In this document: positions 1 through 24,624 of the stretch, piece after piece
Numbering within the stretch: the stretch's first letter is position 1
How the letters are laid out: every line of letters begins with the position of its first letter
Assembly: GCA_937120535.1 (NCBI GenBank)
Contig: CAKZJX010000087.1
Span: forward strand, 1 to 38,658
Origin: an uncultured Anaerolineae bacterium
GTDB taxonomy: Bacteria > Chloroflexota > Anaerolineae > Anaerolineales > Villigracilaceae
Direction: 5' to 3'
DNA: 38,658 nt
Notes under the pieces: model-generated
Seen by the model: the letters and a program-made list of their open reading frames with translations, nothing else
What the model was told of the DNA's origin: nothing
Databases searched by the model: none
Translations under genes and position numbers: made by a program

Positions 1-89
1 CAGAGACCTTACGAAGAACTCTGCGCCTTCTGCGGTTGGCTTTCGCAGTGGGCTCATCTTTGACTATCTGTAACCTAAAAGGAGAGAGT

Positions 90-551
90 ATGGACGCAAA
101 AGTTACGTGGAAAGGGAATCTCGTCTTCGAGGCTGTTGCCGATTCCGAGAAGCCGATCCTGTTGGATACCAAACGACCGGAGCGGCTCGGGCCCGGCCCA
201 ATGGAATTGATTGCTATGGGCATGGCGGGTTGCACGGCGATGGATGTGATCTCGATCCTAGAGAAGAAGAAGCAGAACATCACCCGTTTTGAGGTCAAGA
301 TCCGTGCCGATCGGGCAGCCGAACATCCGATGGTGTTCACTCAGGCCGAGTTGGTGTACGAGGTGACCGGCCACAACGTGGATGAAGCCGCTGTCCGGCG
401 AGCGATTGAGCTCTCGGTGCAGAAGTATTGTCCGGCCCACGCTATGATGCGGCAGGTGTTCCCGATTCGCCAGCGGTATGTGATTTACGAGGATCAAGGC
501 GACGGTTCGCAACAGGTGGTGGCTGAAGGGGAGTATGTTCTCGAGTCTTAG
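90..551 (+). CDS. OsmC/Ohr-family peroxiredoxin-like protein
   Basis: A 153-residue OsmC-family protein. Members of this family reduce organic hydroperoxides in the cytoplasm through a pair of cysteines. Both cysteines are visible: Cys48 in the MAGCTAMD helix and Cys114 in VQKYCPAH. The length is normal for the family. The ATG at 90 is chosen because a GGAG ribosome site lies just upstream (aaaggagagagt) and the family N-terminus (MDAKVTWKGN) begins there; the frame stays open back to 36 without family-like sequence. It converges on the LysM/M23 lipoprotein gene, and the two stop codons overlap by 4 nt with no terminator hairpin between them. Family assignment is firm. The substrate is unknown: YhfA-like OsmC proteins of this length may have roles other than peroxide reduction. 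Confidence 0.85.
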   Translation: MDAKVTWKGNLVFEAVADSEKPILLDTKRPERLGPGPMELIAMGMAGCTAMDVISILEKKKQNITRFEVKIRADRAAEHPMVFTQAELVYEVTGHNVDEAAVRRAIELSVQKYCPAHAMMRQVFPIRQRYVIYEDQGDGSQQVVAEGEYVLES

Positions 552-2041
552 GGGGCGGCCTCTTCGGGTTGGCGATAGATGCGGCTGGCTGCGTCGGAGC
601 ATTCACAGGCGGTGACGATCCAGCCGCCTTTGTTTAAGGTGCCTAGGTAGGGCGCTGCGCCGTTGCGGGCGACCCATCCGTCCAGGGTGAAGGGGATGGG
701 GCCGTCGGCGGGGATCCACTCGCCGTTGAATTTACGAGCCAGGTGGACGTGGGTGCCGGTGGCATGACCGCCCTCGCACGAGGGCCAGCCAACCGGATCA
801 CCTCGTTTCACCGCTTGACCCAGGGGGGCGCGTCCTTGGGTGGCAAGGTGAAGGTAGAAAATTGCCCAGCCAGTGCGCTCGTTGCCATCGCTATCGAGGT
901 CGAGAACCACGATGCCGGTTTCGGAGCGAACGATGATACCGTCGCCCAGGGCAATGACGTAGGTTTCGGGGTCAGCAGTGAAGCAGCCACTATGCTCGCT
1001 TGGGGGAGCAAAGTCGATAGCGGCTAGGGGTTCACCATCGCCCCAGGCGGCATGAGGCCCGCCGGTGTAGGTCCAAACCTGGCCGGCCGGGAAGGGGAGG
1101 GGGAAGTCGGGTTGGCGCAGGCTGCCAGGGATGAGTACGAAGGGATGGGCCCAAGGGTCACCGAACAGGTCGCGGTAGGTGCGGGCCAGGCCGTCGGGGC
1201 CAATGGCAGTGTGGAAGGATGGGCCGGCCGCAACCTGGGCGAAGTAGTATTGCACTCCGACAGTGGCAGCGTTTTCCCAGGGGTTGGGGAAAAATTGGCG
1301 CCTATCGGCCAGGTCGAAGGAGGTGCGATTGCCGGTGCGCCAGCCGTAGTAGCCGTTGTTCAGGGTGTTGGCGGTCCAAGTGAGTTGGCGATAGAGGCTA
1401 CAGGCTTGGGGATGGCGATAGCCTAGGAGGTAGGGCGTTTCGGGCGGCGAGGGGTTGGTGAGGGCACCGCTCTGGTATTCTAGCAGGGCCAGCAATAGGC
1501 GCGGGTTGAGGCTGTAGTTGGCGGCCACATAGTCCACTAGATCAGCGCCGCTGCGCCAACGGCCGGCGGCGTATTGGCGGTAGTCTTTCAACCATCCCGG
1601 ATAGGAATTGACGAAGGCAGCGGTGCTGAAGCCGGTGGCGGTGGGGCTATTGACGAAGGCGTGATCGGGCAGGATGGGCGAAGCGGGCGCCCAAAGCGGC
1701 AGATAGTAGATCGGGATTTTCATGGGCATGCCTGGGGGCATGGTAGTCGCGTCGGCCGGGATGAAGGGGTTGGCGATTAGGATCTCTGCTACGCTGGTGT
1801 TGAAGCGCGCTGCTAGGGCCGGCAGGGTATCGCCACTTTGGGCGGTGTAGTCTACTAGCTCGCCAGGCTGAAAGTAGGTATGGCCACTGGAGATTGAGGC
1901 GATGGACGCCTGATCGGGATGGGAAACAGCGACCCGCATGGTTGGCATGGGAGTCATCGCTGGACCGGGCGAAGCGCAGGCTGAGAGAAGTAGCGCTCCG
2001 AGGAGGAGCAGCGCAAGGGAGAGGCGATAGTGGTTATTCAT
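548..2041 (-). CDS. LysM / lysozyme-like / M23 lipoprotein, paralogue 1
   Basis: A predicted exported lipoprotein of 497 residues that probably binds and cuts peptidoglycan. Visible parts in order: signal peptide with lipobox LLSAC (Cys22); LysM at about 64-112; a helical region at about 145-300 that resembles the lysozyme/SLT fold around LLLALLEYQSG; and an M23 metallopeptidase domain at about 320-470. The M23 zinc ligands are present: His and Asp in GGPHAAWG...AAIDFAP, and the HVH of GTHVHLARK. In the lysozyme-like motif the position of the usual catalytic Glu is Gln190, so that activity may be lost. The start is the ATG at 2041, which overlaps the end of the upstream paralogue (ATGAATAA); a GTG at 2050 is an alternative. 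No good ribosome site is seen, which fits translational coupling to the upstream gene. It is last in the tandem triplet. Confidence 0.8.
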   Translation of the reverse strand: MNNHYRLSLALLLLGALLLSACASPGPAMTPMPTMRVAVSHPDQASIASISSGHTYFQPGELVDYTAQSGDTLPALAARFNTSVAEILIANPFIPADATTMPPGMPMKIPIYYLPLWAPASPILPDHAFVNSPTATGFSTAAFVNSYPGWLKDYRQYAAGRWRSGADLVDYVAANYSLNPRLLLALLEYQSGALTNPSPPETPYLLGYRHPQACSLYRQLTWTANTLNNGYYGWRTGNRTSFDLADRRQFFPNPWENAATVGVQYYFAQVAAGPSFHTAIGPDGLARTYRDLFGDPWAHPFVLIPGSLRQPDFPLPFPAGQVWTYTGGPHAAWGDGEPLAAIDFAPPSEHSGCFTADPETYVIALGDGIIVRSETGIVVLDLDSDGNERTGWAIFYLHLATQGRAPLGQAVKRGDPVGWPSCEGGHATGTHVHLARKFNGEWIPADGPIPFTLDGWVARNGAAPYLGTLNKGGWIVTACECSDAASRIYRQPEEAAP

Positions 2042-3608
2042 CGGGTTCACGGACGATCAAGGACCACGATTGTCCATATACGTCGGCGATGATCACTTGT
2101 CCGTTGCGCTCCAGAGTTCCTTGGTAAGGTACGGCGCCGGCGCGCGCTCGCCAGCCGCTCAGCACGAAGGGCAAGGGGCCGTCGGCCAAGATCCATTCGC
2201 CGTTGTATTTGCGAGCGATATGAATGTGCCGACCGGTGGAACTGCCCCCTTCACACGAAGGGTGACCGATGCGATCGCCGGTTTGCAGCCATTGGCCAAC
2301 TTGGACGCGATCTGTTTCGGCCACGTGTAGGTAGAGCACAACCCAACCAGTGTGCTCGTTGCCGTCGCCATCCAGGTCGAGGATGACGACGCCGTTCTCG
2401 GCGCGCACGATCACGCCAGGGGCAACCGCCGTGGCCCAGTGGGGGGAGAGGTCGCATCCTCGTTTGCTCGATTGGGGGGCGAAGTCCAAGGCGGCAAGGG
2501 GACCGTTGCGATCCCAGGCGCCATGGGGGCCGCTAGTGTAGCTCCAAACGATCTTCGGTTCAAAGGGCAGGATGAACCAGGGTTGGGCGAGGCCGGGGGG
2601 AAAGAGCGGCTCGACCGTTCGGGCGCGCGCCCAGGGATCGCCAAACATCTCGCGGTAATAGGCCAGAAAGCCGTTTGGCAAGGTGGGATCGATCACCCGT
2701 TCCCACTCGACTCGATTGCGCGAGCGAGAGAAGAAATAGAACAGGGCGACCGTGCCGGCGTTGAGTTCAGGGTCAATGCGCAGTCGTTCGCCGTTGGGGA
2801 AGACCAGTTCGGTGAGGGTGCCACTACGCCAGCCATAGTATCCCTTGAAGAGGTGAGCAATGGCCCATTGGAGTTGTTGGTAGAGCTCATTTTCTCCATC
2901 GACGCGCATTTGAATGCCAAAGGGGTGTTTTTGTCGGAAGAGGTTGGGCGGATTGCCAAGCACCCAGCCACTTTCGTATTCTAGCAACGCCAGCAGTAGA
3001 CGCGGGTTGATGGAATTCTCCAAGGCGATGTGGCGGACGATCTCAGCGCCTTCGGTGTAGCCGCCGGTGGCTAGCCATTGGGTGTAACGGCTGAGGTAGC
3101 CACCGCTCTGTTTCACGTAGGAAGCTACGTCGAAGTCCGCTGCTGAGGGGGAGAAGACGATCTCGGAGTCGGGAAGGAGTTTGAACTTGGGAGTTTTGTC
3201 GGCCTGACTCAGGCGATCGGGGATGAAGAGCAGGATGCCTTCATCGATCAATCCTTCTTCCGGCAGGGTAGTAGAGAGGGAGACGATCTCGCTCTTTTGC
3301 ACCTCAAAGCGTTTGGCCACTGCTTCTAGGCTATCGCCGCTTTGAACGTAGTACACCAGGGGTGGGATAGGCTTAGGAGAGACAGGCGGAGAGACAATCG
3401 GATCGGGGATGGGTTGAAACGGCGTCGGGAGGGCCGGCAGTGGGTTGAGGGGCGAAGCGAGGTGCGAAGCGCCGACGACGGGGTCGTCGGCGGTGGGCGT
3501 TGGGGGAGGCGGGGTCGGTGTGGGAATGATGCCCCAGGGAGCCGGTTGTACGAGACAGGCAGTGATCAGGAAGCCCAGGATCAGGAGCAGAAGGAAGCGA
3601 TCCATCAT
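2034..3608 (-). CDS. LysM / lysozyme-like / M23 lipoprotein, paralogue 2
   Basis: The second of three paralogous lipoproteins, 524 residues. It has a signal peptide with lipobox ITAC (Cys18), a Pro-rich linker at about 22-82, LysM at about 86-132 (YYVQSGDSLEAVAKRF), a lysozyme/SLT-like helical domain at about 160-310 and an M23 domain at about 345-495. M23 ligands are visible: SGPHGAW...AALDFAP and the HIH of GRHIHIARK. This is the only paralogue that keeps Glu (Glu212) in LLLALLEYESG, where SLT-type transglycosylases carry their catalytic acid, so it may be the enzymatically complete copy. The start has two ATG codons in a row (3608 and 3605) and no Shine-Dalgarno site. A TATAAT hexamer ends 5 nt upstream, suggesting a leaderless message. 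M23 activity is inferred from motifs; the lysozyme-like call is weaker. Confidence 0.8.
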   Translation of the reverse strand: MMDRFLLLLILGFLITACLVQPAPWGIIPTPTPPPPTPTADDPVVGASHLASPLNPLPALPTPFQPIPDPIVSPPVSPKPIPPLVYYVQSGDSLEAVAKRFEVQKSEIVSLSTTLPEEGLIDEGILLFIPDRLSQADKTPKFKLLPDSEIVFSPSAADFDVASYVKQSGGYLSRYTQWLATGGYTEGAEIVRHIALENSINPRLLLALLEYESGWVLGNPPNLFRQKHPFGIQMRVDGENELYQQLQWAIAHLFKGYYGWRSGTLTELVFPNGERLRIDPELNAGTVALFYFFSRSRNRVEWERVIDPTLPNGFLAYYREMFGDPWARARTVEPLFPPGLAQPWFILPFEPKIVWSYTSGPHGAWDRNGPLAALDFAPQSSKRGCDLSPHWATAVAPGVIVRAENGVVILDLDGDGNEHTGWVVLYLHVAETDRVQVGQWLQTGDRIGHPSCEGGSSTGRHIHIARKYNGEWILADGPLPFVLSGWRARAGAVPYQGTLERNGQVIIADVYGQSWSLIVREPDE

Positions 3609-3613
3609 GGGAG

Positions 3614-3619
3614 ATTATA
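3614..3619 (-). promoter_or_regulatory. TATAAT -10 box of lipoprotein paralogue 2
   Basis: A perfect TATAAT on the minus strand is followed by CTCCC and then the start codon at 3608. This places the expected transcription start at or next to the ATG. A weak -35-like CTGACC lies about 19 nt upstream. Confidence 0.5.
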
Positions 3620-3641
3620 CCTGTTTCAGTGGTGGGATTGG

Positions 3642-5243
3642 TCAGCGGACGATGGTGTTCTGTTCGCTGATCCCTTCCAGCGCTTCCAGGATGAGGCTGC
3701 CGCGCTGGAGGAAGCCGTCGTATTCGCCGCCGGCGCTGATAGCCTTCCAGCCATCTAGGATGAAGGGGATGGGGCCATCAGCGGGGATCCATTCGCCGTT
3801 GTATTTGCGGGCGATGTGAAGGTGAGTGGCGTTGGAGGCGCCGCCCTCGCAGGAGGGATGGCCAATGCGGCTGATGCCGCCGCGCAGGCGCGTGCCGGCC
3901 GGAACCCGATCGCGGCTCTCAATGTGAAGGTAGAGGATCACCCAGCCGGTTTGTTCGTAGCCATCCCCATCGAGGTCATGGAGCACTTGGCCATCCGCAG
4001 AGCGAACAACTAGGCCATCGGTGACGGCAATCACCCAAGCATCGGAGGACGTGCAGCCCGGCCGTTCTAGGAATGGGGCAAAATCGAGGGCGGCCCAAGC
4101 AGACCCATCGCCCCAGCCGCCGTGAGGGCCGCCGGTGAACAGCCAGGGAACGCCTCGCTCAAAGGGCAAGGTCAGCCGCGGTTGGGTTAACCATTCGGGG
4201 ACGAGGGGTTCGACGGCAAGGTCGAAGGGGGAGCCGAAGAGGAAGAAATAGGTTTGAAAGAGGCCAAACGGCTCGACGGCCGCTTGCCAGCCGGCGCGCC
4301 CTTCGAGGGTGGCGAAGAAGTGTTGGACGGCCGCCGTGCCGGCATTGATCCGCGGGTCCACTGGGACAATTGAGCCGTCGGCTAGAGTCCAGGTGGAGAC
4401 GGCGTTGGCGCGCCACCGATAGTAGCCGCGGTTGAGCTCGTTGGCAGCGTAGGTCAACTGTCGGTAGAGGTCGGGCCGGCGCGGGTCGGCGATGTTGAGG
4501 GCATATTCGGTTTGGGCCGGCGTGGGATCGTTCACCCAGCCGCTTCGATATTCAATCAGCGCCAGGAGCAAACGTGGGTTGACCGAATAGTTCTGGGCAA
4601 CTTGCTGGATGATTTGGGCGGCCGTATAGGTTTGGCCATTGATCTCTTGTTTAAAGGTGGAGAGGTGGCCGCGGCGTTCGTTGATGAAGGCATCGATGTC
4701 GAATGCAATGGCGGCCGGCCCGTAGACCAGTTCGGAGTCGGGGATGATCTTGAACGATGGACCCATCTCGCCGGGTTCAGGGGTCGGGATGAGCAGGACC
4801 TGGCCAACGTGGATTAGATTGGGATCGGCAAGGCCGTTGGCGCGCACCAGGTCTTGGAGGCCGATGCCGAAGGCCTGAGCGATGCGGCCAAGGGTGTCGC
4901 CGGGTTGGACAACGTATTGCGCGGGCGTTTGACGCAGGGTGGGCAGGGCGCGGGGCAGATCGGGTGTGGGTGAGGCGCGGGGCACGCCGGCCGGCCAGGG
5001 GGTAGGAAGAAGTTTGTCTAAAGGGACGGCGGTGGGCACGATGAACGGCGCTTCGGTTGGGGTGAGGGTGGGCAGGACCTTGCCGCTGCTCGGCAGGGTC
5101 GGGAAGGGAAAGGGCGGTGTGTCTTGAATGGAGACGAAAGGATCGTAGGGTGAGGGGGTGGCCATGGGCAAAGGAAGTTCACTGGCTCCACATGCCATAA
5201 GGAACAGGCTAGCCATCGTGATCACAACCGACGGACGACGCAT
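3642..5243 (-). CDS. LysM / lysozyme-like / M23 lipoprotein, paralogue 3
   Basis: The first-transcribed and longest of the triplet, 533 residues. It has a short signal peptide with lipobox LMAC (Cys18), a long Pro/Thr-rich spacer to about 107, and a well-conserved LysM at about 109-155 (YVVQPGDTLGRIAQAF). The lysozyme-like domain follows at about 180-330 and the M23 domain at about 360-515, with the zinc-ligand motifs GGPHGGWG...AALDFAP and THLHIARK intact. In LLLALIEYRSG the catalytic-Glu position is Arg233, so the glycosidase-like part is probably inactive or only structural. The start at 5243 gives a clean signal peptide; the frame remains open to 5330 but that extension runs into repeat sequence. 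A TAAAAT box lies 7 nt upstream with no Shine-Dalgarno. The gap to paralogue 2 is 33 nt and holds that gene's own promoter. Confidence 0.8.
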   Translation of the reverse strand: MRRPSVVITMASLFLMACGASELPLPMATPSPYDPFVSIQDTPPFPFPTLPSSGKVLPTLTPTEAPFIVPTAVPLDKLLPTPWPAGVPRASPTPDLPRALPTLRQTPAQYVVQPGDTLGRIAQAFGIGLQDLVRANGLADPNLIHVGQVLLIPTPEPGEMGPSFKIIPDSELVYGPAAIAFDIDAFINERRGHLSTFKQEINGQTYTAAQIIQQVAQNYSVNPRLLLALIEYRSGWVNDPTPAQTEYALNIADPRRPDLYRQLTYAANELNRGYYRWRANAVSTWTLADGSIVPVDPRINAGTAAVQHFFATLEGRAGWQAAVEPFGLFQTYFFLFGSPFDLAVEPLVPEWLTQPRLTLPFERGVPWLFTGGPHGGWGDGSAWAALDFAPFLERPGCTSSDAWVIAVTDGLVVRSADGQVLHDLDGDGYEQTGWVILYLHIESRDRVPAGTRLRGGISRIGHPSCEGGASNATHLHIARKYNGEWIPADGPIPFILDGWKAISAGGEYDGFLQRGSLILEALEGISEQNTIVR

Positions 5244-5742: not shown

Positions 5743-6189
5743 TCAATACTGGAAGCCTGTGCCCATGATGTAGTTCTCTAGGCCGCGGATTTCGCTCTCC
5801 CGATCCTCGAGCATGGCTTGCATCACGTCGCGCATGGAGATCACGCCGATCAATTGATCCTGTTCAACCACGGGGAGATGGCGAATGCCGTATTTTTTCA
5901 TGAGCGCCGAGCATTCTTCTAGCGTTGTATTGCGCGTTACGGTGATCATACGTGGAGTCATTACATCCTTGATCAGTGTGTCTTTGGCGCTGCGGCCTTC
6001 AATTTCTCCTTTGCGCAAGTAGTCGCGCTCGGTGTAGATACCCACGACTTTGTTGCCCTCGGTCACCAACACAGCGCCGATCTGGGCCTGGTTCATGACC
6101 TGTAAGGCCTTGAGCACGGTATCAGTGGAGGCAACGGAATACAGGGTAGGGCCGGATTTATTTTCGAGCAATTTACGGACGGTGACCAT
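5743..6189 (-). CDS. CBS-domain pair protein
   Basis: A 148-residue protein made almost entirely of two CBS domains (about 10-65 and 75-135), the Bateman module that binds adenine nucleotides such as AMP, ATP or NAD and senses energy state. The first domain ends in GIYTERDYLRK and the second contains DVMTPRMITV and GVISMRDVM, all typical. There is no fused catalytic domain. The ATG at 6189 is chosen because a GGAGGA ribosome site lies 6 nt upstream; the frame is open further to 6342 but without family-like sequence. It is the last gene of the formate dehydrogenase run, 125 nt after the large subunit. It could regulate that complex or be an independent sensor; the sequence does not decide this. 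Confidence 0.85.
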   Translation of the reverse strand: MVTVRKLLENKSGPTLYSVASTDTVLKALQVMNQAQIGAVLVTEGNKVVGIYTERDYLRKGEIEGRSAKDTLIKDVMTPRMITVTRNTTLEECSALMKKYGIRHLPVVEQDQLIGVISMRDVMQAMLEDRESEIRGLENYIMGTGFQY

Positions 6190-6314
6190 AGCATTTCCTC
6201 CTGAGCAAAGAAATAGATGTTTCAAGAAGAGCTGCCGAGGGCACAGCGAAGCGAGTCGCCTGTCGGACCGTTCCTGCGCCCTCTGCAGCGGTATAGATAC
6301 CGATACCCTTGCTT

Positions 6315-9140
6315 TCAGGCTTTTTCTATCTTCACGGCGCATACCTTGAACTCTGGGATCTTTGAGATCGGGTCGAGGGCAGCGCCGCTGGTTAGCACGT
6401 TGGCCGAGGCCTGGGGGAAGTGGAAGTTGGCGTAGACCATGCCAGGCGGCACGCGGTCGGTTACCATAGCTTCGGCTTCTATCGCGCCGCGTCGCGAGGA
6501 GACACGCAGACGTTTGCTGCCGTTGAGGCCGATCTTCTCGGCGTCCTCCTGGCTGATCTCGATCCGCGGTTCGGGATAAATTGCCAACAATCCCTGAGAG
6601 CGCCGTGACATCTCTCCGCCGTGCCAGTGGTACAGGACGCGGCCGGTGCTCATGATAAGCGGGTAGTCGTCATCGGGCAGTTCGGCCGGCGGCAGGTAGT
6701 CCACTGGCACAAATTTGCCTAGGCCGCGAGTGAATTTCTGGACGTGCAGGATGGGAGTGCCGGGATGATCTGGGCTGGGGCAAGGCCACTGCAGGGTCTC
6801 GCCGCGCTCAAGCCGTTGTCGGGTGATGCCGGCGTAGGAAGGCGCTAGGGCGTTGATCTCGTTCAGGATCTGGGCTGTGTCGGTGTAGTCCCACTTGGCC
6901 CAAGGCGCATCCAGGTCGATCGCACGGCCGTGCTGGGCAAGCAGGGGGATCAGGCGTCGGGCGATCTCAGTGATGATCCACCAATCAGGGCGCGCTTCGC
7001 CGGGCGGTTCAATAGCCTTGTGCACCAGTTGGACGCGGCGTTCGGTGTTGGTGAAGGTGCCGCTCTTCTCGGCAAAGGAGACGCCGGGCAGCAACACGTC
7101 GACGTAGAGCGAGGTTTCGGAGGGGAAGATTTCTAGCAAGACCAGGAAGTCAGCGCTCTCTAAGCAACGGCGCACGTGGTTGGTGTCGGCATCTGACATG
7201 ATGGGATTTTCGCCGAGGATGCAGAGAGCACGGATCTTGTTCTCCAAGATGCTCGGGATCATCTCGGTCACGGTCATGCCGGCCCTTGGCGAGAGGCCGC
7301 GCCGATTCTCGTCTCCGATCGGGCGCTCGTCCAGTCCCCATGCTCGGGCAAACTTGATACGGGCTTCTTCGCTGGTGACCGGCTGGTAGGCCGGGTAGAC
7401 GTTCGGCAAGCCGCCCATGTCGCATGCACCCTGGACGTTGTTCTGGCCACGCAGGGGATTGGCGCCACCGCCTGGTTTGCCCATGTTGCCAAGCAGCATT
7501 TGCAAATTGGCCAGGGCCATCACGTTTTGTACACCGGTGACATGTTGGGTGATACCCATAGCCCACAGGGCGGCCATCGGCTTGGAGGCGGCCATGATCT
7601 CGGCTGCCTGGTAGAGTTGTTCCATCGGCACGCCGGTGATGGCGCTGACCTTCTCTGGCGAATAGTGCATCACAGCGGCTTTGAAGTCCTCAAAGCCCTC
7701 GGTGCGCGTGGCAATGAACTCCTTGTCTTCCCATCCTTTCTCTAGAATGATGTACATCAGGCCATTGAGGAGGGCGATGTCAGTGCCGGCCTTGTGTTGC
7801 AGGTGGATCTCGGCGAAGTCACACAGATCAATGCGTCGTGGATCGGCCACGATCAGCCTGGCGCCACGTTGACGCACCGCTTGGCGAAGGCGCATGCCGA
7901 TCACGGGATGTTGCTCGGTGGTGTTGGACCCGATGACAAAGAAGGCCTGGGCTTGTTCGGTTACGTCGTCGATCGAGTTGGACATGGCGCCAGAACCGAA
8001 GGAGATGGCTAGGCCAGCGACGGTGCTGGAGTGGCACAGTCGAGCGCAGTGGTCGATGTTGTTGGTCCCGATCACCTGCCGGGCCAGTTTGTTCATCAGG
8101 TAGTTCTCTTCGTTGAGGCACTTGGCCGAGGCCAGGATGCCGATGCTGTCCGGTCCGCTTTGGCTCCAGACTTCGGCCAGGCGGCGCGCCACGATGTTCA
8201 GCGCTGTCTCCCAATCGGTCTCTACCCACTCCCAGGCACTGCCCTGGCGGGTCTTGGCCTGACCTTCGAGCAGGTAGCGCCGCACCCTAGGTTTGGTCAA
8301 CCGATCGGGGTGATGGACGTAGTCGTAGCCGAAGTGCCCCTTGACGCATGTCCAGCCGTGGTTGGCCGGCCCATCCCAAGCCCCTTCCACGCGGATGATC
8401 CGGTTGTCCTTGACGTGGAGGGTGATCTTGCAGCCCACACCGCAGTAGGAGCAGATGGTATCCACCTTCTTGACCTGCCAGGGCCGGCCCTGGCCGATCG
8501 ACATCTTGGGCCAGAGCGCCGCCGTGGGGCAGACCGCCACACAGGAGCCGCAGAACTCGCACAGGCTATCTTGCATCCCGCCATCCGCTCCAAAGCCGAT
8601 GTAGGCGTTAAAGCCGCGATGGAAGACGCTGATTGCCTCGACGCCGTTGATGTGCTGACAGGCACGCACACAGAGGCCACACAGGATACACTTGTTGCGG
8701 TCTACTATGATGAAGGGGTTGGAGGTATCGATCGGATAGTGATGCTGTTTGCCGCGGAAGCGGTTGCCGGTCACGCCGTATTCGTAGGCTAAGTCTTGCA
8801 ACGAGCATTCACCGGCCGCTTCGCAAGTCATACATTCCAGCGGGTGATCGGAGAGCAACATTTCCAGCGTAAACTTGCGCGCGCTGCGCACGCGTGGCGA
8901 CTGGGTTTGGATCACCAGCCCCTCGCTCACCAGAAACGTACAGGCCGGCTGCAAGGCTCGCAGATTCTCGATCTCCACCAAACAGATCCGGCAAGCGCCG
9001 GAGGGCGGCAGAGCCGGATGCTCGCATAGCACAGGGATAGCGATCCCCGCCCGGCGCGCCGCTTGGAGCACGGTCTCACCGGGTTTTGCCAGAACGGCCT
9101 TTCCGTCGATCATCAAACGAATTTCGCTCGTTGTGCTCAT
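6315..9140 (-). CDS. fdhA: Formate dehydrogenase large subunit, cysteine type, NuoG-like N-terminus
   Basis: A 941-residue molybdo/tungsto-bisPGD oxidoreductase predicted to oxidise formate to CO2 and pass electrons to the NuoF/NuoE-like subunits. The order is: N-terminal [2Fe-2S] ferredoxin domain (Cys39, Cys50, Cys53, Cys67), His/Cys [4Fe-4S] segment at about 98-112, two ferredoxin-type [4Fe-4S] clusters at about 151-205 (CILCGLCVRAC, CEFCGSCVAVC), then the catalytic domain whose own cluster starts at CSYCGVGC (about 230). The active-site ligand is Cys369 in RLCHSSTVAG, where selenoproteins of this family have Sec. The molybdopterin dinucleotide-binding domain is at the C-terminus. A GGAAGGG ribosome site precedes the ATG. 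It lies 15 nt after the NuoF-like gene in one operon. The architecture matches NAD-dependent FdhA and the FdhF of electron-bifurcating Fdh-Hyl complexes. Confidence 0.9.
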   Translation of the reverse strand: MSTTSEIRLMIDGKAVLAKPGETVLQAARRAGIAIPVLCEHPALPPSGACRICLVEIENLRALQPACTFLVSEGLVIQTQSPRVRSARKFTLEMLLSDHPLECMTCEAAGECSLQDLAYEYGVTGNRFRGKQHHYPIDTSNPFIIVDRNKCILCGLCVRACQHINGVEAISVFHRGFNAYIGFGADGGMQDSLCEFCGSCVAVCPTAALWPKMSIGQGRPWQVKKVDTICSYCGVGCKITLHVKDNRIIRVEGAWDGPANHGWTCVKGHFGYDYVHHPDRLTKPRVRRYLLEGQAKTRQGSAWEWVETDWETALNIVARRLAEVWSQSGPDSIGILASAKCLNEENYLMNKLARQVIGTNNIDHCARLCHSSTVAGLAISFGSGAMSNSIDDVTEQAQAFFVIGSNTTEQHPVIGMRLRQAVRQRGARLIVADPRRIDLCDFAEIHLQHKAGTDIALLNGLMYIILEKGWEDKEFIATRTEGFEDFKAAVMHYSPEKVSAITGVPMEQLYQAAEIMAASKPMAALWAMGITQHVTGVQNVMALANLQMLLGNMGKPGGGANPLRGQNNVQGACDMGGLPNVYPAYQPVTSEEARIKFARAWGLDERPIGDENRRGLSPRAGMTVTEMIPSILENKIRALCILGENPIMSDADTNHVRRCLESADFLVLLEIFPSETSLYVDVLLPGVSFAEKSGTFTNTERRVQLVHKAIEPPGEARPDWWIITEIARRLIPLLAQHGRAIDLDAPWAKWDYTDTAQILNEINALAPSYAGITRQRLERGETLQWPCPSPDHPGTPILHVQKFTRGLGKFVPVDYLPPAELPDDDYPLIMSTGRVLYHWHGGEMSRRSQGLLAIYPEPRIEISQEDAEKIGLNGSKRLRVSSRRGAIEAEAMVTDRVPPGMVYANFHFPQASANVLTSGAALDPISKIPEFKVCAVKIEKA

Positions 9141-9155
9141 CGTTCCCTTCCTTTC

Positions 9156-11072
9156 TCACTCCGCAACGGCTTCCATTGCAACCACCGAGGCCATGCGCGG
9201 CGAGATATGGATAGCGCCCAGGTTGCATACCTCATAACAAGCGCCGCATTGGATGCATTTCTCTTGATGGATCACATGCGGCTTCTTCTTCTCACCGCTA
9301 ATGGCGTCCGACGGACAGACTTTCAAGCACAAGCCACAGCCGGGGCACGAGACTTCGTCGATCTCGTATTGGAACATGCCCTTGCATACACCAGCCGGGC
9401 AGAAACGCTCCTTGACGTGCATTTCGAATTCGTCTCGGAAGAAGCGCAGGGCCGCCATCACTGGCCCTGGGGTCAGTTGACCCAAAGCGCATAGGGAGGC
9501 CTGTTGCATCTGGGTTGAAATGTATTCGATTGTCTCCAAGTCTTCCATCTGGCCCTGGCCTTCCACGATGCGAGTCAGCGTTTCTAACAAGCGCTGACCG
9601 CCGATGCGGCAGGGTACACATTTGCCGCACGACTCGGCCGAGGCAAAGGTCAGGAAGTAAAGCGCAAATTCCACCATACAGGTATCCTGGTCCACCACGA
9701 TCATGCCGCCCGAACCCATGGTGGCGCCGGCTTGGGTGAGCGAGTCGAAATCCACCGGCGTATCCAAGGCGCTCTCAGGCAGACAGCCGCCCAACGGACC
9801 GCCGGTTTGCACCGCCTTGAATTTCTTTTTCTTGGCGATCCCTCCGCCAATATCGTAGATGATCTCGCGCAGCGTGATCCCCATCGGGACTTCGATCAAA
9901 CCGGTGTTCTTGATCTTACCGGTCAGGGCGAAGACTGCCGTGCCGGGCGAGTTGGGCGTGCCGATCGTTCGGAACCAATCGGCGCCGCGCAGGATGATCT
10001 GGGGTGTCAGGCCGTAGCTCTTGACGTTGTTGACGTTGGAAGGCTTGTTCCATAGGCCGGAGACAACTGGGAACGGCGGACGGGGTCGTGGCTCGCCGCG
10101 TCGCCCTTCGATCGAGGCGATCAGAGCCGTCTCCTCGCCGCAGACGAACGCCCCGGCGCCCTCTTTGAGGTACAGATCGAACGAGAAATCGCTGCCCAGG
10201 ATGTTTTCTCCCAGCAGTCCGTACTCGTATGCTTGGTGGATGGCTTTGCGTAGCCGTTTGATCGCTAGGGGATATTCAGCGCGGCAGTAGATATAGCCTT
10301 GGCGGGCGCCGATGGCATAGGCCGCAATCGCCATTCCTTCGATCACCGAATGTGGATCGCCTTCCAGGATGGAGCGGTCCATGAATGCTCCGGGATCGCC
10401 CTCATCGGCGTTGCAGATCACGTACTTCGGTTCACCCTGCGCCCGACGGCAGAATTCCCACTTGAGGCCGGTGGGGAATCCTGCTCCGCCGCGACCACGC
10501 AGGCCCGATGTTTTCATTTCCTCGATGACCTGGTCTGGCTGCATGCCGCCCAGCGCTTTGGCAAGGGCCTGGTAGCCGTCAACAGCAATATAGTCCAGGA
10601 TGTTCTCAGGATCGATCATGCCACAGTTGCGCATGGCGATGCGTAACTGCTTCTTGTAAAAGGGCAGTTCTGGGTAGGTGGGCAACCCTTCTTCGGGGTG
10701 AACACCTGGGAAGAGCATCTGGGCCAGGGCGAGCTTCTTTACGACGCGCCCATTGACCAGGTGTTCCTCGATCAACTGCGGCACCATTTCCGGCTTGACG
10801 TTGGCGTAGGTGATGCGGGGCCGGCCCGGAAGCCAGATGTCCATCAGCGGCTCTTTGACACACATCCCAATGCAGCCCACGCCAACGATCTGCGCCCTCA
10901 GCCCTCGCTTTTCTACATCTTGACGGGCCGCCTGAGCTACTTCGGAGGCGCCGGCGGCGATCCCACAGGTGCCCATGCCGATCAGGATGATCGGTTCGGC
11001 GGCACGGTTTTCTTCCATTCGTTTCTGCGTTGCTTGTCGTAGAGCTTCTAGGTCTGCGATTGTCTTGAGCAT
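9156..11072 (-). CDS. NuoF-like NADH-binding subunit of formate dehydrogenase
   Basis: A 638-residue diaphorase subunit that would carry FMN and the NAD(H) site. It has an N-terminal thioredoxin-like [2Fe-2S] domain at about 25-110, the NuoF core with the FMN/NADH glycine-rich loop GLRGRGGAGFPTG at about 190-203, CNADEGDPGAFMDRS, and the cluster motif SCGKCVPCRIGG. At the C-terminus are two added ferredoxin [4Fe-4S] motifs (CPGCGLCLKVCP and CIQCGACYEVC), which are absent from plain complex I NuoF. This layout is that of HylB/HydB-type and soluble NAD-formate dehydrogenase beta subunits. The extra ferredoxin domain makes bifurcation between NAD and ferredoxin possible but does not prove it. 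An AGGAGG ribosome site lies 7 nt before the ATG. It is 15 nt after the NuoE-like gene. Confidence 0.9.
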   Translation of the reverse strand: MLKTIADLEALRQATQKRMEENRAAEPIILIGMGTCGIAAGASEVAQAARQDVEKRGLRAQIVGVGCIGMCVKEPLMDIWLPGRPRITYANVKPEMVPQLIEEHLVNGRVVKKLALAQMLFPGVHPEEGLPTYPELPFYKKQLRIAMRNCGMIDPENILDYIAVDGYQALAKALGGMQPDQVIEEMKTSGLRGRGGAGFPTGLKWEFCRRAQGEPKYVICNADEGDPGAFMDRSILEGDPHSVIEGMAIAAYAIGARQGYIYCRAEYPLAIKRLRKAIHQAYEYGLLGENILGSDFSFDLYLKEGAGAFVCGEETALIASIEGRRGEPRPRPPFPVVSGLWNKPSNVNNVKSYGLTPQIILRGADWFRTIGTPNSPGTAVFALTGKIKNTGLIEVPMGITLREIIYDIGGGIAKKKKFKAVQTGGPLGGCLPESALDTPVDFDSLTQAGATMGSGGMIVVDQDTCMVEFALYFLTFASAESCGKCVPCRIGGQRLLETLTRIVEGQGQMEDLETIEYISTQMQQASLCALGQLTPGPVMAALRFFRDEFEMHVKERFCPAGVCKGMFQYEIDEVSCPGCGLCLKVCPSDAISGEKKKPHVIHQEKCIQCGACYEVCNLGAIHISPRMASVVAMEAVAE

Positions 11073-11087
11073 GGTCGCCTCCTGCCT

Positions 11088-11558
11088 CTATTCGAGTTTC
11101 TCCAGGCGTTCGATCAGGCTCTCGGGGTTGGTCTGACCATAGACCTGATCGTCTACGACGACAATCGGAGCCAGCCCACAGGAGCCCAGGCAGTATACGA
11201 TTTCTAGGCTGTATTTGTAGTCCGGATCGCTGCCGCCTGGGGAGAGCTGGAGAGCTTCTTCTAGGCTCTTCACAAGTTTGGTTGCGCCGCGCACATGGCA
11301 GGCGGTTCCATCGCAAATCTTGATCAGATGACAGCCGCGCCGGGTGAGGTGAAATTGGGCGTAGAACGTAGCCACACCATATAAGCGGCTGAGTGGAATG
11401 CCAGTCCGTTTTGAAATGGCGGATAGAACTTCTTTGGGCAGGTAACCATATGCGTCTTGCACTCGCTGGAGAATCGGGATCACAGCTCCCTTTTCACCAT
11501 TAAATTCCTTTAAAATCTCATCCAAAGGTGCCAAGTCAACCGTTGCAGTGTTGACCAT
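11088..11558 (-). CDS. NuoE-like [2Fe-2S] subunit of formate dehydrogenase
   Basis: A 156-residue thioredoxin-fold [2Fe-2S] protein of the NuoE/HylA family. It relays electrons beside the FMN of its NuoF partner. The four cluster cysteines are seen as CDGTACHVRG and YCLGSCGLAP. The helical N-terminal part (about 15-75) ending in SRLYGVATFYAQF is typical. The start is the ATG at 11558: its ribosome site GGAGG sits 6 nt upstream, and that site itself overlaps an earlier in-frame ATG at 11570, which is therefore unlikely to be used. It is the first gene of the formate dehydrogenase core operon, preceded by about 140 nt of non-coding DNA holding an inverted repeat. Confidence 0.9.
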   Translation of the reverse strand: MVNTATVDLAPLDEILKEFNGEKGAVIPILQRVQDAYGYLPKEVLSAISKRTGIPLSRLYGVATFYAQFHLTRRGCHLIKICDGTACHVRGATKLVKSLEEALQLSPGGSDPDYKYSLEIVYCLGSCGLAPIVVVDDQVYGQTNPESLIERLEKLE

Positions 11559-11689
11559 GTTGTCCTCCAAAAAACGAAGAATTCAAGCGAAATTGTCGGC
11601 TTTTGCACGACCGTTGTTATTATATTCTATGCCGACAGGTCGCCAGGTAGTGCGTTTCTTCGTAGATTTTAGAGGATGTTTGTCCTGAA

Positions 11690-11710
11690 TTAGGATATAG
11701 ATTATCCTAA
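11690..11710. promoter_or_regulatory. Perfect 8-bp inverted repeat TTAGGATA-N5-TATCCTAA
   Basis: TTAGGATA (11690-11697) and TATCCTAA (11703-11710) are exact reverse complements separated by 5 nt. The palindrome covers the stop codon of fdhD and lies about 130 nt upstream of the NuoE-like gene. The arms are AT-rich and no U-run follows on either strand, so an intrinsic terminator is unlikely and a protein-binding operator is more plausible. The arms loosely recall DtxR/IdeR-type boxes (TTAGGTTA arms), but the spacing differs. The regulator is unknown. Confidence 0.45.
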
Positions 11711-12535
11711 ATCCTTGGCCCTTTGGTGTGCCGTCTCTAGCTCTGAACGATCTGTTGTGTTGAGCAGGGCGATACGTTCTGGATGAGTGTAGAGGTTGAA
11801 GCGGGTGCGTCGCGCATAGCCGATCAGGGTGATGCCCCATTTCTCGGCCAGTTCGATCGAGAGTGAGGACGGGGAGGTGCGCGAGATCAGGATGCCGGCC
11901 CCCAGGCGAGCGGCTTTCTGCAGCATTTCCGAGCTGATGCGGCCGGTGGTGATCAGGATGCGCTGCGCCGGCCATAGGTTCTGGCTCAGGCACAGGCCGG
12001 CGATCTTATCCAGCGTGTTGTGGCGACCGATGTCTTCGGCGGCAAGCAGAATCTGCTGGCCATCGCTCAGGGCCGAGGTGTGCACCCCGCCGGTCTCGCG
12101 GTACAAGCTCTGCGACTCGAAGAGCATCTCCACCAAGTGACCGATCGTCTCGGCCGGCACCACAAATCCGTCGGTGGGGTGCGCCTGACGCGGCATCTCG
12201 ATGATCTCCACTGCTGTCAAGCCGCCCGAGCAGCCGGAGGTGCGCGTCCATTTAGAAGGGAGATGAGCGCTGTGGGTGAGCCAGATATCTACATTGTCCC
12301 CGTGCTCGCAGAGGCGGACATCGGCCACCTCTTCCATTGAGTCGATCACGCCTTCGTTGAACAGAAAACCGATCGCCATCGCCTCCAGCAAGATGGGCGT
12401 GCACATGAACGAGACCCACACCTGTCCGTTGACGGTGAGCGAGACCGGCGTCTCGACGATGGTATGGCCTTCGTGGATCAGGTTGCGGCTAAAGTCAATC
12501 TGTTGGTATCGGATAGGTCTGCGCGGTTCCATCAT
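11702..12535 (-). CDS. fdhD: Formate dehydrogenase sulfurtransferase FdhD
   Basis: A 277-residue FdhD-family protein. FdhD moves sulfur from a cysteine desulfurase to the molybdenum or tungsten cofactor and is needed to make formate dehydrogenase active. Recognisable segments are FMCTPILLEAMAIGFLFNEGVI, the cysteine-loop region TSGCSGG (one Cys, where the E. coli protein has two in a CxxC), GGVHTSAL, AAEDIGRHNTLDKI and TTGRISSEMLQKAARLG. The start at 12535 (or the adjacent ATG at 12532) matches the family N-terminus MEPRRPIRYQQ. The frame is open to 12589, but the added residues do not look like FdhD. It lies directly upstream of the formate dehydrogenase genes and reads in the same direction, which supports the functional link. 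Confidence 0.9.
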   Translation of the reverse strand: MMEPRRPIRYQQIDFSRNLIHEGHTIVETPVSLTVNGQVWVSFMCTPILLEAMAIGFLFNEGVIDSMEEVADVRLCEHGDNVDIWLTHSAHLPSKWTRTSGCSGGLTAVEIIEMPRQAHPTDGFVVPAETIGHLVEMLFESQSLYRETGGVHTSALSDGQQILLAAEDIGRHNTLDKIAGLCLSQNLWPAQRILITTGRISSEMLQKAARLGAGILISRTSPSSLSIELAEKWGITLIGYARRTRFNLYTHPERIALLNTTDRSELETAHQRAKDLG

Positions 12536-12611
12536 CGTTAACCTAATAACAGTAAGGGAGAGAGTGTCTTCAGAACAACAAGCTGCCAATCTGAACGCCG
12601 GCCGGTTTGCG

Positions 12612-21578: not shown

Positions 21579-22615
21579 AAGTTGTCCTCTTCCGCCAGCA
21601 CGGCGGGCCAGAAGTTTTGGAGTATACCGATTTCCCTACCCCAGAACCGCAACCTGGCCAGGCGCTGGTTCGTCTGCGGGCTGCTGCTCTCAACCGCATG
21701 GACGTGATGGTGCGCAACGGCTGGCCCGGTCTAAAACTGGACCTACCTCACATCAACGGCGCCGACGGCGCCGGCGTGATCGAAGCCATCCTCCCACTTC
21801 CTGAGCAACCCACCGACCTACAAATAGGCGACCGGGTGGTGATCAACGCCAACCTCGGATGCGGCCACTGCGACTTCTGCCTGAGCGGCTGGGACAACAT
21901 GTGCCGCAATTGGCACCTGCTCGGCGAAACGGTGCGCGGCACCTATGCCCAATATGTCTGCGTGCCCATCCGTCAGATCTACAAACTGCCCGCGAACTTC
22001 GACGTCCACCAGGCAGCTGCCGCTGCCCTGGTGTATCAGACGGCCTGGCACTCCCTGATCACCCGCGGCCGGCTTCAAGCCGGCGAACTGGTGCTGATCG
22101 TGGGAGCCGGCGGCGGCGTGAACACCGCCAGTCTCCAGATCGCCAAACTGGCCGGCGCGCGGGTCATCGTCGTCGGCTCCAACGCCGAAAAGCTGGCTAA
22201 GGCCCAGGCCCTGGGCGCCGATCTGACCATTGACCGCTCCCAACACGAAGACTGGTCAAAAGCTGTCTACCTGGCCACCGAAAAGCGCGGCGTAGACTTG
22301 GTGGTGGACAACGTGGGCGCCACTTTCATGCACTCCCTGCGATGTCTGAAAAAGGGCGGGCGCCTGCTCACCGTCGGCAACAGCGGCGGCCCACGCTTCG
22401 AGATCGATAACCGCTACATCTTTGCCCGCCACCTCTCCATCATCGGCTCCACCATGAGCCATCACAAAGACTTCACCACTGTGATGAACCTGGTCACATC
22501 CGGCGCACTTCGGCCGGTGATCGACTCCACCTTTCCGCTCCACGAGGCTGCTGCCGCCCAAGAGCGCCTGTGGAAAGGCCAAAACTTCGGCAAGATCACC
22601 CTCGACATTCCATGA
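21575..22615 (+). CDS. Zinc-type medium-chain dehydrogenase/reductase
   Basis: A 346-residue MDR-superfamily oxidoreductase. The GroES-like N-domain includes GADGAGVIEA and keeps the structural-zinc cysteines in CGHCDFC with a fourth Cys in NMCRN. The Rossmann part has LVLIVGAGGGVNTASLQIAK for NAD(P). At the position where alcohol dehydrogenases have the catalytic-zinc Cys, the sequence reads AALNRMDVM, as in quinone oxidoreductase-like members, so the catalytic zinc is probably absent although the structural zinc remains. Its place inside an ATGA-linked glycosyltransferase operon is unusual and suggests a sugar or lipid-carrier substrate; this is inference. Confidence 0.88.
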   Translation: MKVVLFRQHGGPEVLEYTDFPTPEPQPGQALVRLRAAALNRMDVMVRNGWPGLKLDLPHINGADGAGVIEAILPLPEQPTDLQIGDRVVINANLGCGHCDFCLSGWDNMCRNWHLLGETVRGTYAQYVCVPIRQIYKLPANFDVHQAAAAALVYQTAWHSLITRGRLQAGELVLIVGAGGGVNTASLQIAKLAGARVIVVGSNAEKLAKAQALGADLTIDRSQHEDWSKAVYLATEKRGVDLVVDNVGATFMHSLRCLKKGGRLLTVGNSGGPRFEIDNRYIFARHLSIIGSTMSHHKDFTTVMNLVTSGALRPVIDSTFPLHEAAAAQERLWKGQNFGKITLDIP

Positions 22616-24624
22616 ACCGAGATCGCCTGTTCGAAATCGCCCTCCTGGCCATTGTCCTGGCCCTGTATACTTACGCCGCCCTCTCCGATCGCTACAACTT
22701 CGGCGAGCGTTGGTTCGTCCGAGACGATGCTTACTACTACTTCAAAGTGGCCCAGAACATCGTCGAAGGCCGCGGCTCCACCTTCGATGGGATCAACCCC
22801 ACCAACGGCTACCATCCCCTGTGGATGTTGGTGTGCGTCCCGATCTTCGCCTTAGCGCGCTTCGATCTAGTGCTCCCTCTGCGCATCCTGCTCCTGGCGA
22901 CCGGCCTGATCAGCGCCTGGACGGGCGTGCTGATCTTTCGCCTGGTGCGGCAGACTCTCTCCATGCCGGCAGCCATCCTGGCCGCTTCGTACTGGGTGTT
23001 CGACTACTCGATTCACGTCCGCGTCACCCAATTTGGTCTGGAGACCGGACTGACCGCTCTCACCCTGAGCGCCTTCCTGCTCGCCCTATCTCGCCTCACA
23101 CCCGAGCGGCCGCTCTCGGCGCGTCAAGCTCTGACCCTGGGCCTGCTGGCCACCGCCGTGACGTTCAGTCGCCTCGATACGGTCTTCCTCACCTTCCTGG
23201 CCGGCGCGTGGATCGTATTGCGCGGCACGCCGATGCGCAGCCGCTTGATGCTCGATGTGGTGGTGTTGGTCAGCGCAGCCTTCCTCAGCCTGGCATTGCG
23301 GTTGGGCCTGCCGGCCTACTTCACCTATGCCCGAACGGGCGTCATACTGGCCGGCCTGGGGACGGCGATCCATGTGGCGTTGTTCTACCTCTTCGGGCAA
23401 TATCGCCCCTTCTCCGCGCCCCTGCCAGCCGCTTTGCTGCGGTTGGCTGGCGTCTCGCTGTTGGGCAGCGCCATCACGTCTGGGCTGATGATCGGCTTGT
23501 TGATCGGCAACCAGCTTCCAGGGTTGCCGCGAAGCGCCCTCCTGATCTATGCTGGGCTGGTGCTCCTCGGGACCGGGATCGTCCGGTTGGCAGCCAGCCG
23601 CCGGAGCGGAGATCTTTCTCTAGATTGGCGATCGATCGTCCGCGAGAGCATCTACTACTACGGCATCCTAGGCGGATCGCTGGCTGCCTATATGGTGCTC
23701 AACCGACTGCTATTCGGCACATTTATGCCGATCAGCGGCCAGATCAAGCACTGGGGGGGTGCGTTGGAAGGTTCGGTCTACGGCAAGCCCATCCAATCGC
23801 TCTCTGGCTTTCTCGGATTGGAACCGATGGAAGGAATAAACGCGTGGGGCCCAATAACGTCCCTGTTGGCCAAGATCAGCGGGTTGCTGGGAAACCACCT
23901 TTGGCTAGCAATAGGTTTGGTCATTGTCATCTCATCTCTTCTCTTGGCTACACGCATATTGCGGGCCAAACGTGCCGCCACCTCCATGGGGCTGCCTCTG
24001 TTGCTGGCCGGCTCGGTGGTGCAGATGTTTTACTACCGCGGCCAGGGCTACGCCGGCGATAAGGACTGGTATTGGGTGGCGCAGATGTTACTGGTGGCCC
24101 TGCTCGGCGCACTGCTATACGACCTGGTAATGCGCCTGCTGCACAAGCTCGATCGGGCTCCACAAAGCAAGCTGAGCCGAATTGCCCGATGGCCCCTAGG
24201 CCGCATGCCCTGGCTGATGACCATCGCTGTGATGCTCTACTACTTCCTCTCCTTCGCCACCATGGTGATCCAACGCATGCCCTGGCAAACGAACCACAGC
24301 CTGAGCGCATATATGGACGTGCTGCCATTCCTCGAGGCCAACACCGAAGAAGGCGCGCTGATCGGCATGACCGGCGGTGGGAATGTGGGATACTTCATCC
24401 GCGGCCGCACCATTGTGAACATGGACGGCCTGATCAACAGCTATCCCTACTTCTTAGCTCTGCAGGCCGGCCATGCCGATGCTTACCTGAAACGCATCGG
24501 CTTGGATTATATCTTCGCCAATCCCAATATCCTCCAACAAATGCCCTACCAAGGCCAATTCGACGAGTGGTCTGAGAAAATTGGCAGGTTCGGCAAAAAA
24601 GAACTGTTACGTTATTCTCCATGA
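22612..24624 (+). CDS. GT-C membrane glycosyltransferase, second
   Basis: A 670-residue polytopic membrane protein with about ten or more hydrophobic helices. The first extracytoplasmic loop carries FVRDDAYYYFKVAQNIVEG and then GINPTNGYHPLW. The DD pair followed by an aromatic run is the typical GT-C acidic motif, seen in oligosaccharyl- and mannosyltransferase-like proteins. A shorter soluble C-terminus (about 580-670) follows. The ATG at 22612 overlaps the previous stop by ATGA, which fixes the start; the open frame back to 22570 lies inside the dehydrogenase gene. It probably uses the lipid-linked sugar made by the upstream GT2 enzyme. Confidence 0.8.
   Translation: MNRDRLFEIALLAIVLALYTYAALSDRYNFGERWFVRDDAYYYFKVAQNIVEGRGSTFDGINPTNGYHPLWMLVCVPIFALARFDLVLPLRILLLATGLISAWTGVLIFRLVRQTLSMPAAILAASYWVFDYSIHVRVTQFGLETGLTALTLSAFLLALSRLTPERPLSARQALTLGLLATAVTFSRLDTVFLTFLAGAWIVLRGTPMRSRLMLDVVVLVSAAFLSLALRLGLPAYFTYARTGVILAGLGTAIHVALFYLFGQYRPFSAPLPAALLRLAGVSLLGSAITSGLMIGLLIGNQLPGLPRSALLIYAGLVLLGTGIVRLAASRRSGDLSLDWRSIVRESIYYYGILGGSLAAYMVLNRLLFGTFMPISGQIKHWGGALEGSVYGKPIQSLSGFLGLEPMEGINAWGPITSLLAKISGLLGNHLWLAIGLVIVISSLLLATRILRAKRAATSMGLPLLLAGSVVQMFYYRGQGYAGDKDWYWVAQMLLVALLGALLYDLVMRLLHKLDRAPQSKLSRIARWPLGRMPWLMTIAVMLYYFLSFATMVIQRMPWQTNHSLSAYMDVLPFLEANTEEGALIGMTGGGNVGYFIRGRTIVNMDGLINSYPYFLALQAGHADAYLKRIGLDYIFANPNILQQMPYQGQFDEWSEKIGRFGKKELLRYSP

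Follow-up and report, generated by a model that had tools for sequence, protein, structure and literature searches.

A tandem trio of predicted LysM, lysozyme-like and M23A lipoproteins conserved in one order of the Chloroflexota

Organization of the gene triplet

The window, i.e., the whole stretch of 38,658 nucleotides analyzed here, represents contig CAKZJX010000087.1 of GenBank assembly GCA_937120535.1 and originates from an uncultured Anaerolineae bacterium of the order Anaerolineales. Based on the list of open reading frames (ORFs) and their translations, three codirectional and adjacent genes, referred to as A, B and C, were located on its minus strand (5243-548). The deduced proteins follow one and the same order: a signal sequence with a lipobox cysteine, a tether rich in Pro, Thr and Ser, a LysM domain, a helical middle domain and an M23 peptidase domain. 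This architecture, computed directly, confirmed the description given in an earlier note on this DNA, in which three adjacent lipoproteins of about 500 residues had been recognized. The genes are as follows.

3642..5243, minus strand: gene A, first in the triplet, encoding a LysM, lysozyme-like and M23A lipoprotein of 533 amino acids (aa); ATG at 5243, lipobox Cys18
2034..3608, minus strand: gene B, second in the triplet, 524 aa; start at 3608, lipobox Cys18
548..2050, minus strand: gene C, third in the triplet, 500 aa, with a short tether; GTG start at 2050, lipobox Cys25

A spacer of 33 bases lies between genes A and B, and the start of C overlaps the 3' end of B by 17 bases, so that an operon is likely and the three genes are probably cotranscribed. 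Protein A shares 42% identity with B and 42% with C in one alignment, and B shares 39% with A and 42% with C in a larger alignment.

Conservation of the triplet and its phylogeny

The trio is a lineage trait of one Chloroflexota order, in which the genes are kept in the order A-B-C. Within 61 genomes (that of the window and 60 relatives), 59 were found to match protein B and 55 harbor three or more matches, counted irrespective of their adjacency. Adjacency was recorded for the named Chloroflexota loci, which comprise the best 80 of at least 415 confirmed relatives. Three adjacent copies are present in 62 and four in eight of them (70/80 with three or four), and among those extending more than 1.5 kb on both flanks, 47 of 49 contain three or more. 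In locus L052, the A copy lies apart and on the opposite strand. According to their titles, these loci belong to Chloroflexota, mostly to metagenome-assembled genomes (MAGs) of Anaerolineales, Anaerolineae or Chloroflexi, and the isolate Thermanaerothrix daxensis, in which the triplet is present (L120), is included. Since adjacent triplets recur throughout the order, the arrangement is not due to chance, and the same triple order occurs in other Chloroflexota rather than in a single genome.

Furthermore, a phylum-wide sample of 301 genomes was screened, with five candidates scored per genome. Full-length matches were obtained in all 24 listed genomes from the same order or closer (best E-values of at most 4.9e-145). 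From other orders of the class, nine of the 14 listed genomes showed a strong match (E-values of at most 1.5e-88) and five a weak one only; the strong matches mostly occupy one place per genome, with two in G173. Genomes outside the class yielded remote matches or none.

In a FastTree phylogeny of 252 copies, A, B and C separate by gene position. In all 62 three-copy loci, an A-type copy comes first and a B-type copy second; the third place is taken by a C-type copy in 59/62 and by a copy of a B-related type, B', in 3/62. An IQ-TREE analysis of 71 copies supported C (ultrafast bootstrap 100), B with B' (99) and B+B'+C (100), as well as a joint clade (100) of A and the single copies found in other orders, the latter set including the A copy of locus L120. 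A formed a clade of its own (89) only upon exclusion of the long-branched copy of L131; the B copy from this locus was placed outside B+B'. Based on this topology, the duplications probably took place close to the root of the order, and the arrangement of the genes has been retained from then on. The old duplication proposed in the earlier note is supported.

No match to query P0002 was obtained from phage records, and two Burkholderia plasmid records match the M23 part alone (25-26% identity). Four remote proteins were inspected using Pfam. Two of them, L133 and L134, contain the middle domain followed by M23 above the cut-off, together with Golvesin_C; L139 shows a sub-threshold M23 match and no middle-domain match, and no Pfam M23 match was found for L151. 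Because of L139 and L151, a constant partnership of the middle domain and M23 is not supported. In L151 (3144-7001), a long protein combines fn3, Ig-like and CARDB domains with a region that matches the family profile in its middle and M23 parts. The titles, abstract openings and selected passages of the literature searched contained no earlier description of the A-B-C triplet.

The peptidase domain is predicted to be of the LasA/beta-lytic type

3645..4169, minus strand: M23A domain of gene A, with H(x)12D, H and HxH retained (alignment, site counts)
2037..2588, minus strand: M23A domain of gene B, with H362, D375, H428, H461, H463 and Y495 (structure comparison, alignment, site counts)
551..1105, minus strand: M23A domain of gene C (alignment, site counts)

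Regarding the Pfam M23 cut-off of 28.7, B scores narrowly above it (29.7), and A (14.7) and C (22.3) score below it. The domain is an atypical representative of M23, but A, B and C each possess the ligands H, D, H and HxH, in line with the earlier note. Moreover, 250 of 252 family copies, those of the window included, retain the full active-site set of five residues (H, D, H, H, H); the 252 copies were counted after dropping copies below 300 bits or without the C-terminal end. Single sites are occupied in 252/252 (H428), 251/252 (H461), 251/252 (H463) and 245/252 copies (Tyr495). H(x)12D, the pattern given for LasA in passages of PMC9662197, occurs in all three window copies and in 224/252 copies overall, and 21 B copies show a spacing of 21 residues.

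An AlphaFold2 model of B was built on 96 sequences (93 of the 95 listed references and the three window proteins) and reached a mean predicted local distance difference test (pLDDT) score of 89.3. With B as query, LasA was the top match of a PDB sequence search (E 1.5e-5), and residues 341-524 of the model were superimposed on residues 1-181 of LasA with Z 20.3 and 2.2 Å over 165 aligned residues, the C-terminal subdomain included. Pseudoalterin (Z 20.2) and beta-lytic protease (Z 19.7) followed, and the next entry reached Z 12.7. The peptidase predicted for A, B and C from model and sequence is of the LasA/beta-lytic M23A type, an assignment more specific than M23 as such, and these matches support the wall-hydrolase resemblance expected in the earlier note. 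An assignment to the common M23B type was dropped, since Z decreases from about 20 to 12.7 outside M23A.

Tyr495 aligns with a Tyr conserved in beta-lytic protease, from which its register was taken, and the residue would represent the counterpart of the LasA oxyanion Tyr151. Two cysteines, C385 and C452, are invariant (252/252); compared with LasA and its two disulphides, one of the two, C452, falls on the Cys of the LasA CEGG motif and C385 lies elsewhere. Ahead of the catalytic His, B contains an EF-hand-like DxDxDG loop (2355-2378, minus strand; residues 411-418). The acidic positions of this loop are conserved in 247/252 (D411), 247/252 (D413) and 249/252 copies (D415), which suggests a calcium-binding insertion in the M23A domain.

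The middle domain resembles lysozymes in its predicted fold

4176..4781, minus strand: lysozyme-like middle domain of gene A, with Arg in the position (slot) of the catalytic Glu, motif IEYRSG (alignment)
2577..3215, minus strand: lysozyme-like middle domain of gene B, with Glu212 in the catalytic slot, motif LEYESG (model, fold search, alignment)
1106..1708, minus strand: lysozyme-like middle domain of gene C, with Gln in the slot, motif LEYQSG (alignment)

A check of each middle domain by HHpred or Pfam had been suggested in the earlier note; no Pfam family was found for the three window proteins at E-values up to 1, SLT and Glucosaminidase included, and no convincing family was found in Pfam, NCBIfam or PHROGs. 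Among family members, Pfam and PHROGs matches are scattered and weak: one of 95 middle domains matched Glucosaminidase (E 0.0016) and one of 95 matched SLT (E 0.16). A profile of the domain gave no match to PDB sequences up to E 10.

The middle domain of B was also modelled alone, on 95 of the 96 sequences, with a mean pLDDT of 94.4. Foldseek listed a g-type lysozyme (E 0.23), LytB, MltF and FlgJ as best matches, none below E 0.001; of the 50 rows shown, 43 belong to the lysozyme superfamily by title and five are plainly unrelated. In the VIA structure comparison (best Z 7.7), 45 of 50 listed rows are taken by us, from titles and general knowledge, to represent the lysozyme superfamily, presumably covering lysozymes, lytic transglycosylases, glucosaminidases/autolysins, a GH23-type chitinase, a phage lysin and muramidase effectors.

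Furthermore, HHalign scored the middle domain at 24.9 against SLT domains of relatives (25 of 30 fetched loci), with a maximum of 19.1 in 60 column shuffles. This match spans about 30 columns at a probability of 11% and places E212 of B on the catalytic Glu of SLT. Other HHalign settings did not convincingly extend it. A GH73 set was compiled from 26 of 30 fetched loci; a viral scan for GH73 relatives returned one locus, which was not used. The lysozyme-like assignment was made because the match lists are uniform, each single score being weak. Accordingly graded, the predicted fold is most likely closest to lysozymes, with modest scores, and structure prediction does not contradict the lysozyme fold suspected in the earlier note.

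Occupancy of the catalytic glutamate slot

In the window, the triplet reads Arg (A), Glu (B) and Gln (C) at the slot, and its occupancy was computed directly for the family. Copies of A (n=84) carry Q46 R33 M3 H1 N1 and copies of C (n=69) carry Q62 H4 L2 R1, none of them Glu; taken together, Gln or Arg accounts for 142/153 and Glu for 0/153. Among B copies (n=79), E43 and Q22 prevail next to other residues, and in the B subclade including the window's gene Glu is present in 39 of 40 copies. Glu occurs in two B' copies (n=11). Copies from other orders (n=9) show R3 Q3 V2 K1, and no Glu was observed in the 18 remote homologues for which the motif was read (20 fetched). Complete triplets (n=67) comprise 42 of the pattern Gln/Arg-Glu-Gln and 25 without Glu in any copy. 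By parsimony, short of a formal reconstruction, Glu in B would have been gained or regained.

The earlier note had credited each protein with both glycan- and peptide-cutting modules. Since the canonical slot is devoid of Glu in A and C, by this criterion the combination can hold only for B. As judged from these residues, the middle domain of A and C most likely serves for binding and lacks glycosidase chemistry, and that of B in the window's lineage could possess real lytic activity. The position two residues before the slot (E210 in B) is acidic, with E in 231/252 and D in 16/252 copies.

Lipobox, tether and LysM domain

4785..4916, minus strand: LysM domain of gene A, residues 110-153 (Pfam E 3.7e-17, 62.4 bits)
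3219..3353, minus strand: weak LysM-like domain of gene B, about residues 86-130 (Pfam 18.2 bits, below the cut-off of 20.9)
1712..1849, minus strand: LysM domain of gene C, residues 68-113 (Pfam E 4.4e-6, 27 bits)

The Pfam gathering score for LysM (20.9) is thus exceeded by A and C and missed by B. As read from the sequence, a Cys fitting a lipobox follows the hydrophobic N-terminal stretch of A (C18), B (C18) and C (C25). A strict lipobox pattern fits 70/81 A, 70/79 B and 67/69 C copies with intact 5' ends. For these figures and those of the tether, the A copy of L120 was grouped outside A. Median tether lengths are 80.5 (A), 81 (B) and 45 residues (C), and the C tether is shorter than that of A in 48/51 loci and shorter than that of B in 48/51 loci. 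A consistently longer tether of A compared with B was rejected, being true in 26/51 loci.

The fourth, B-related copy B' was observed in loci L074, L085, L089, L095, L100, L103, L104 and L106. The median spacing between LysM and middle domain in B' (n=11) is 6 residues versus about 57 elsewhere, and many B' copies have therefore lost LysM.

Comparison with known systems

With the M23A peptidases LasA (staphylolysin), beta-lytic protease and pseudoalterin, the proteins share the whole-domain fold, H(x)12D, HxH, the extra His and the Tyr; they differ from them in being multidomain proteins with a lipobox and in the DxDxDG loop before the catalytic His. NlpD, DipM and ActS likewise combine LysM and M23 at the envelope. 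A lysozyme-like domain is missing from these proteins, several of which are degenerate activators. NCBIfam matches of A, B and C to these proteins are weak and confined to the LysM part, and the M23 domain of DipM fits the B model less well than M23A does (Z 12.5 versus about 20). Non-catalytic activators of the LytM type, such as EnvC and NlpD, have a degenerate M23 site, whereas the family described here keeps its five residues in 250/252 copies.

GH23 lytic transglycosylases, g-type lysozymes and GH73 glucosaminidases resemble the middle domain in its predicted fold and in the register of the helix-Glu motif; unlike them, the middle domains of the window have no Pfam match, and those of A and C lack the catalytic Glu. 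In phi29 gp13 and SP-beta CwlP, whose glycosidase halves are a lysozyme and an SLT domain, respectively, a lysozyme-superfamily domain also precedes M23. Foldseek aligned gp13 over 379 columns with a root-mean-square deviation of 17.7 Å, i.e., not as one rigid body, and VIA aligned the M23 part only. In contrast to these phage proteins, A, B and C are chromosomal predicted lipoproteins of the M23A type, with the Glu slot mostly lost and three copies in tandem. Passages of PMC9662197 describe gp13 as a phage enzyme of the M23B type with H(x)7D.

Proposed function and alternative explanations

Based on sequence and model, a function of A, B and C as lipid-anchored M23A zinc endopeptidases acting on the cell's own peptidoglycan is proposed with some confidence, the lysozyme-like domain mostly binding glycan. 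The lipobox Cys would be lipidated and the Pro/Thr/Ser-rich tether would hold the enzyme at the membrane. LysM would bind glycan containing N-acetylglucosamine (GlcNAc), and the lysozyme-like domain would grip the glycan strand and position a cross-bridge or stem peptide within the M23A groove, which resembles that of LasA. A monoderm envelope is attributed to the Chloroflexota, a view under debate (passages of PMC13319060 and PMC8871954). A tethered, LysM-bearing M23A enzyme would be situated within and beneath the wall, where it would cleave cross-bridges. The three proteins may cooperate. The shorter tether of C could set its reach, and B alone may also cut the glycan strand. Separate SLT-family proteins were found in 41/41 genomes searched, which makes glycan cutting independent of the trio.

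Several observations weigh against this proposal. Foldseek E-values for the middle domain are 0.23 or higher and unrelated chains appear among the matches; its Z value is below 8, within the range the tool terms common. HHalign against GH73 gave 14.7 with shuffles up to 20.2, albeit at the same motif register as SLT. The conserved acid E210 could be an unrecognized catalytic residue of an unusual mechanism. Moreover, no wall synthesis gene was recognized among the 25 commonest neighbor clusters when a single example of each was inspected by eye. Finally, peptidoglycan need not be the substrate, because proteins are further targets of the M23A enzymes LasA and pseudoalterin (passages of PMC9662197).

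Full bifunctionality of A, B and C, as the earlier note had it, would account for the prediction of a lysozyme-like fold next to a complete M23 site and for the conserved acid E210, and phi29 gp13 joins the same two folds; it is nevertheless improbable, given the missing slot Glu in A and C and the position of E210 off register with the Glu of SLT and GH73. An equally improbable role is that of weapons or feeding enzymes directed against other bacteria, like Lysobacter beta-lytic protease. The closest solved relatives are secreted and two are bacteriolytic, but the lipobox, the matches in 59/61 genomes and an arrangement of genes preserved in almost every locus are unlike the features of patchy weapon genes. 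NlpD-type LysM and M23 proteins activate other hydrolases, and LytM-like regulatory factors that do not cut would follow this example; zinc ligands and catalytic His kept in 250/252 copies make this the least credible of the explanations.

Cleavage of envelope or extracellular proteins by M23A, with LysM and the lysozyme-like domain merely tethering the enzyme to the wall, is unlikely but less so than the preceding three. Elastin- and protein-directed roles of LasA and pseudoalterin (passages of PMC9662197) speak for it; on the other hand, the lipobox and two modules predicted to bind glycan locate the enzyme at the wall, and beta-lytic protease cleaves the peptidoglycan interpeptide bridge (PMC13300490).

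Besides the proposed endopeptidase function, a tentative and rather doubtful scenario is that a pseudo-lysozyme partner of M23 was inherited within the Chloroflexota and regained the catalytic Glu essentially in B only. B would then be a true glycan-and-peptide cutter, and its A and C siblings would have been kept as glycan readers with Gln or Arg.

Genes neighboring the triplet

Neighbor clusters were analyzed in 73 loci, with example sequences judged by eye. OsmC (27 loci), CRP-like (27 loci) and thioredoxin-like genes (26 loci) recur; no functional coupling is claimed. In the window, an OsmC-like gene (36-551, plus strand) is convergent with the triplet, and its cluster lies downstream of the triplet on the opposite strand in 27/73 loci. 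On the other side, genes for FdhD, NuoE-like, NuoF-like, NuoG-like molybdopterin oxidoreductase and CBS-domain proteins adjoin the triplet (5743-12589, minus strand), a gene set which presumably resembles NAD-linked formate dehydrogenases. Furthermore, Pfam gave no match at E 1e-6 for two long ORFs at 22570-24624 (684 aa) and 36852-38321 (489 aa).

Implications

To our knowledge, little is known about the wall enzymology of filamentous, apparently single-membrane Chloroflexota, and the literature searched yielded little on it. The trio of putatively tethered M23A enzymes represents candidate growth or cell-separation hydrolases of these bacteria. Moreover, the middle domain, which is without a Pfam family, could be named as one. 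The natural series of Arg, Glu and Gln at one catalytic position offers a test of the lysozyme fold as a glycan reader for a peptidase. If Glu was indeed regained in B, a glycan-reading endopeptidase would have turned into a two-headed cutter in one lineage, flanked by its reader siblings.

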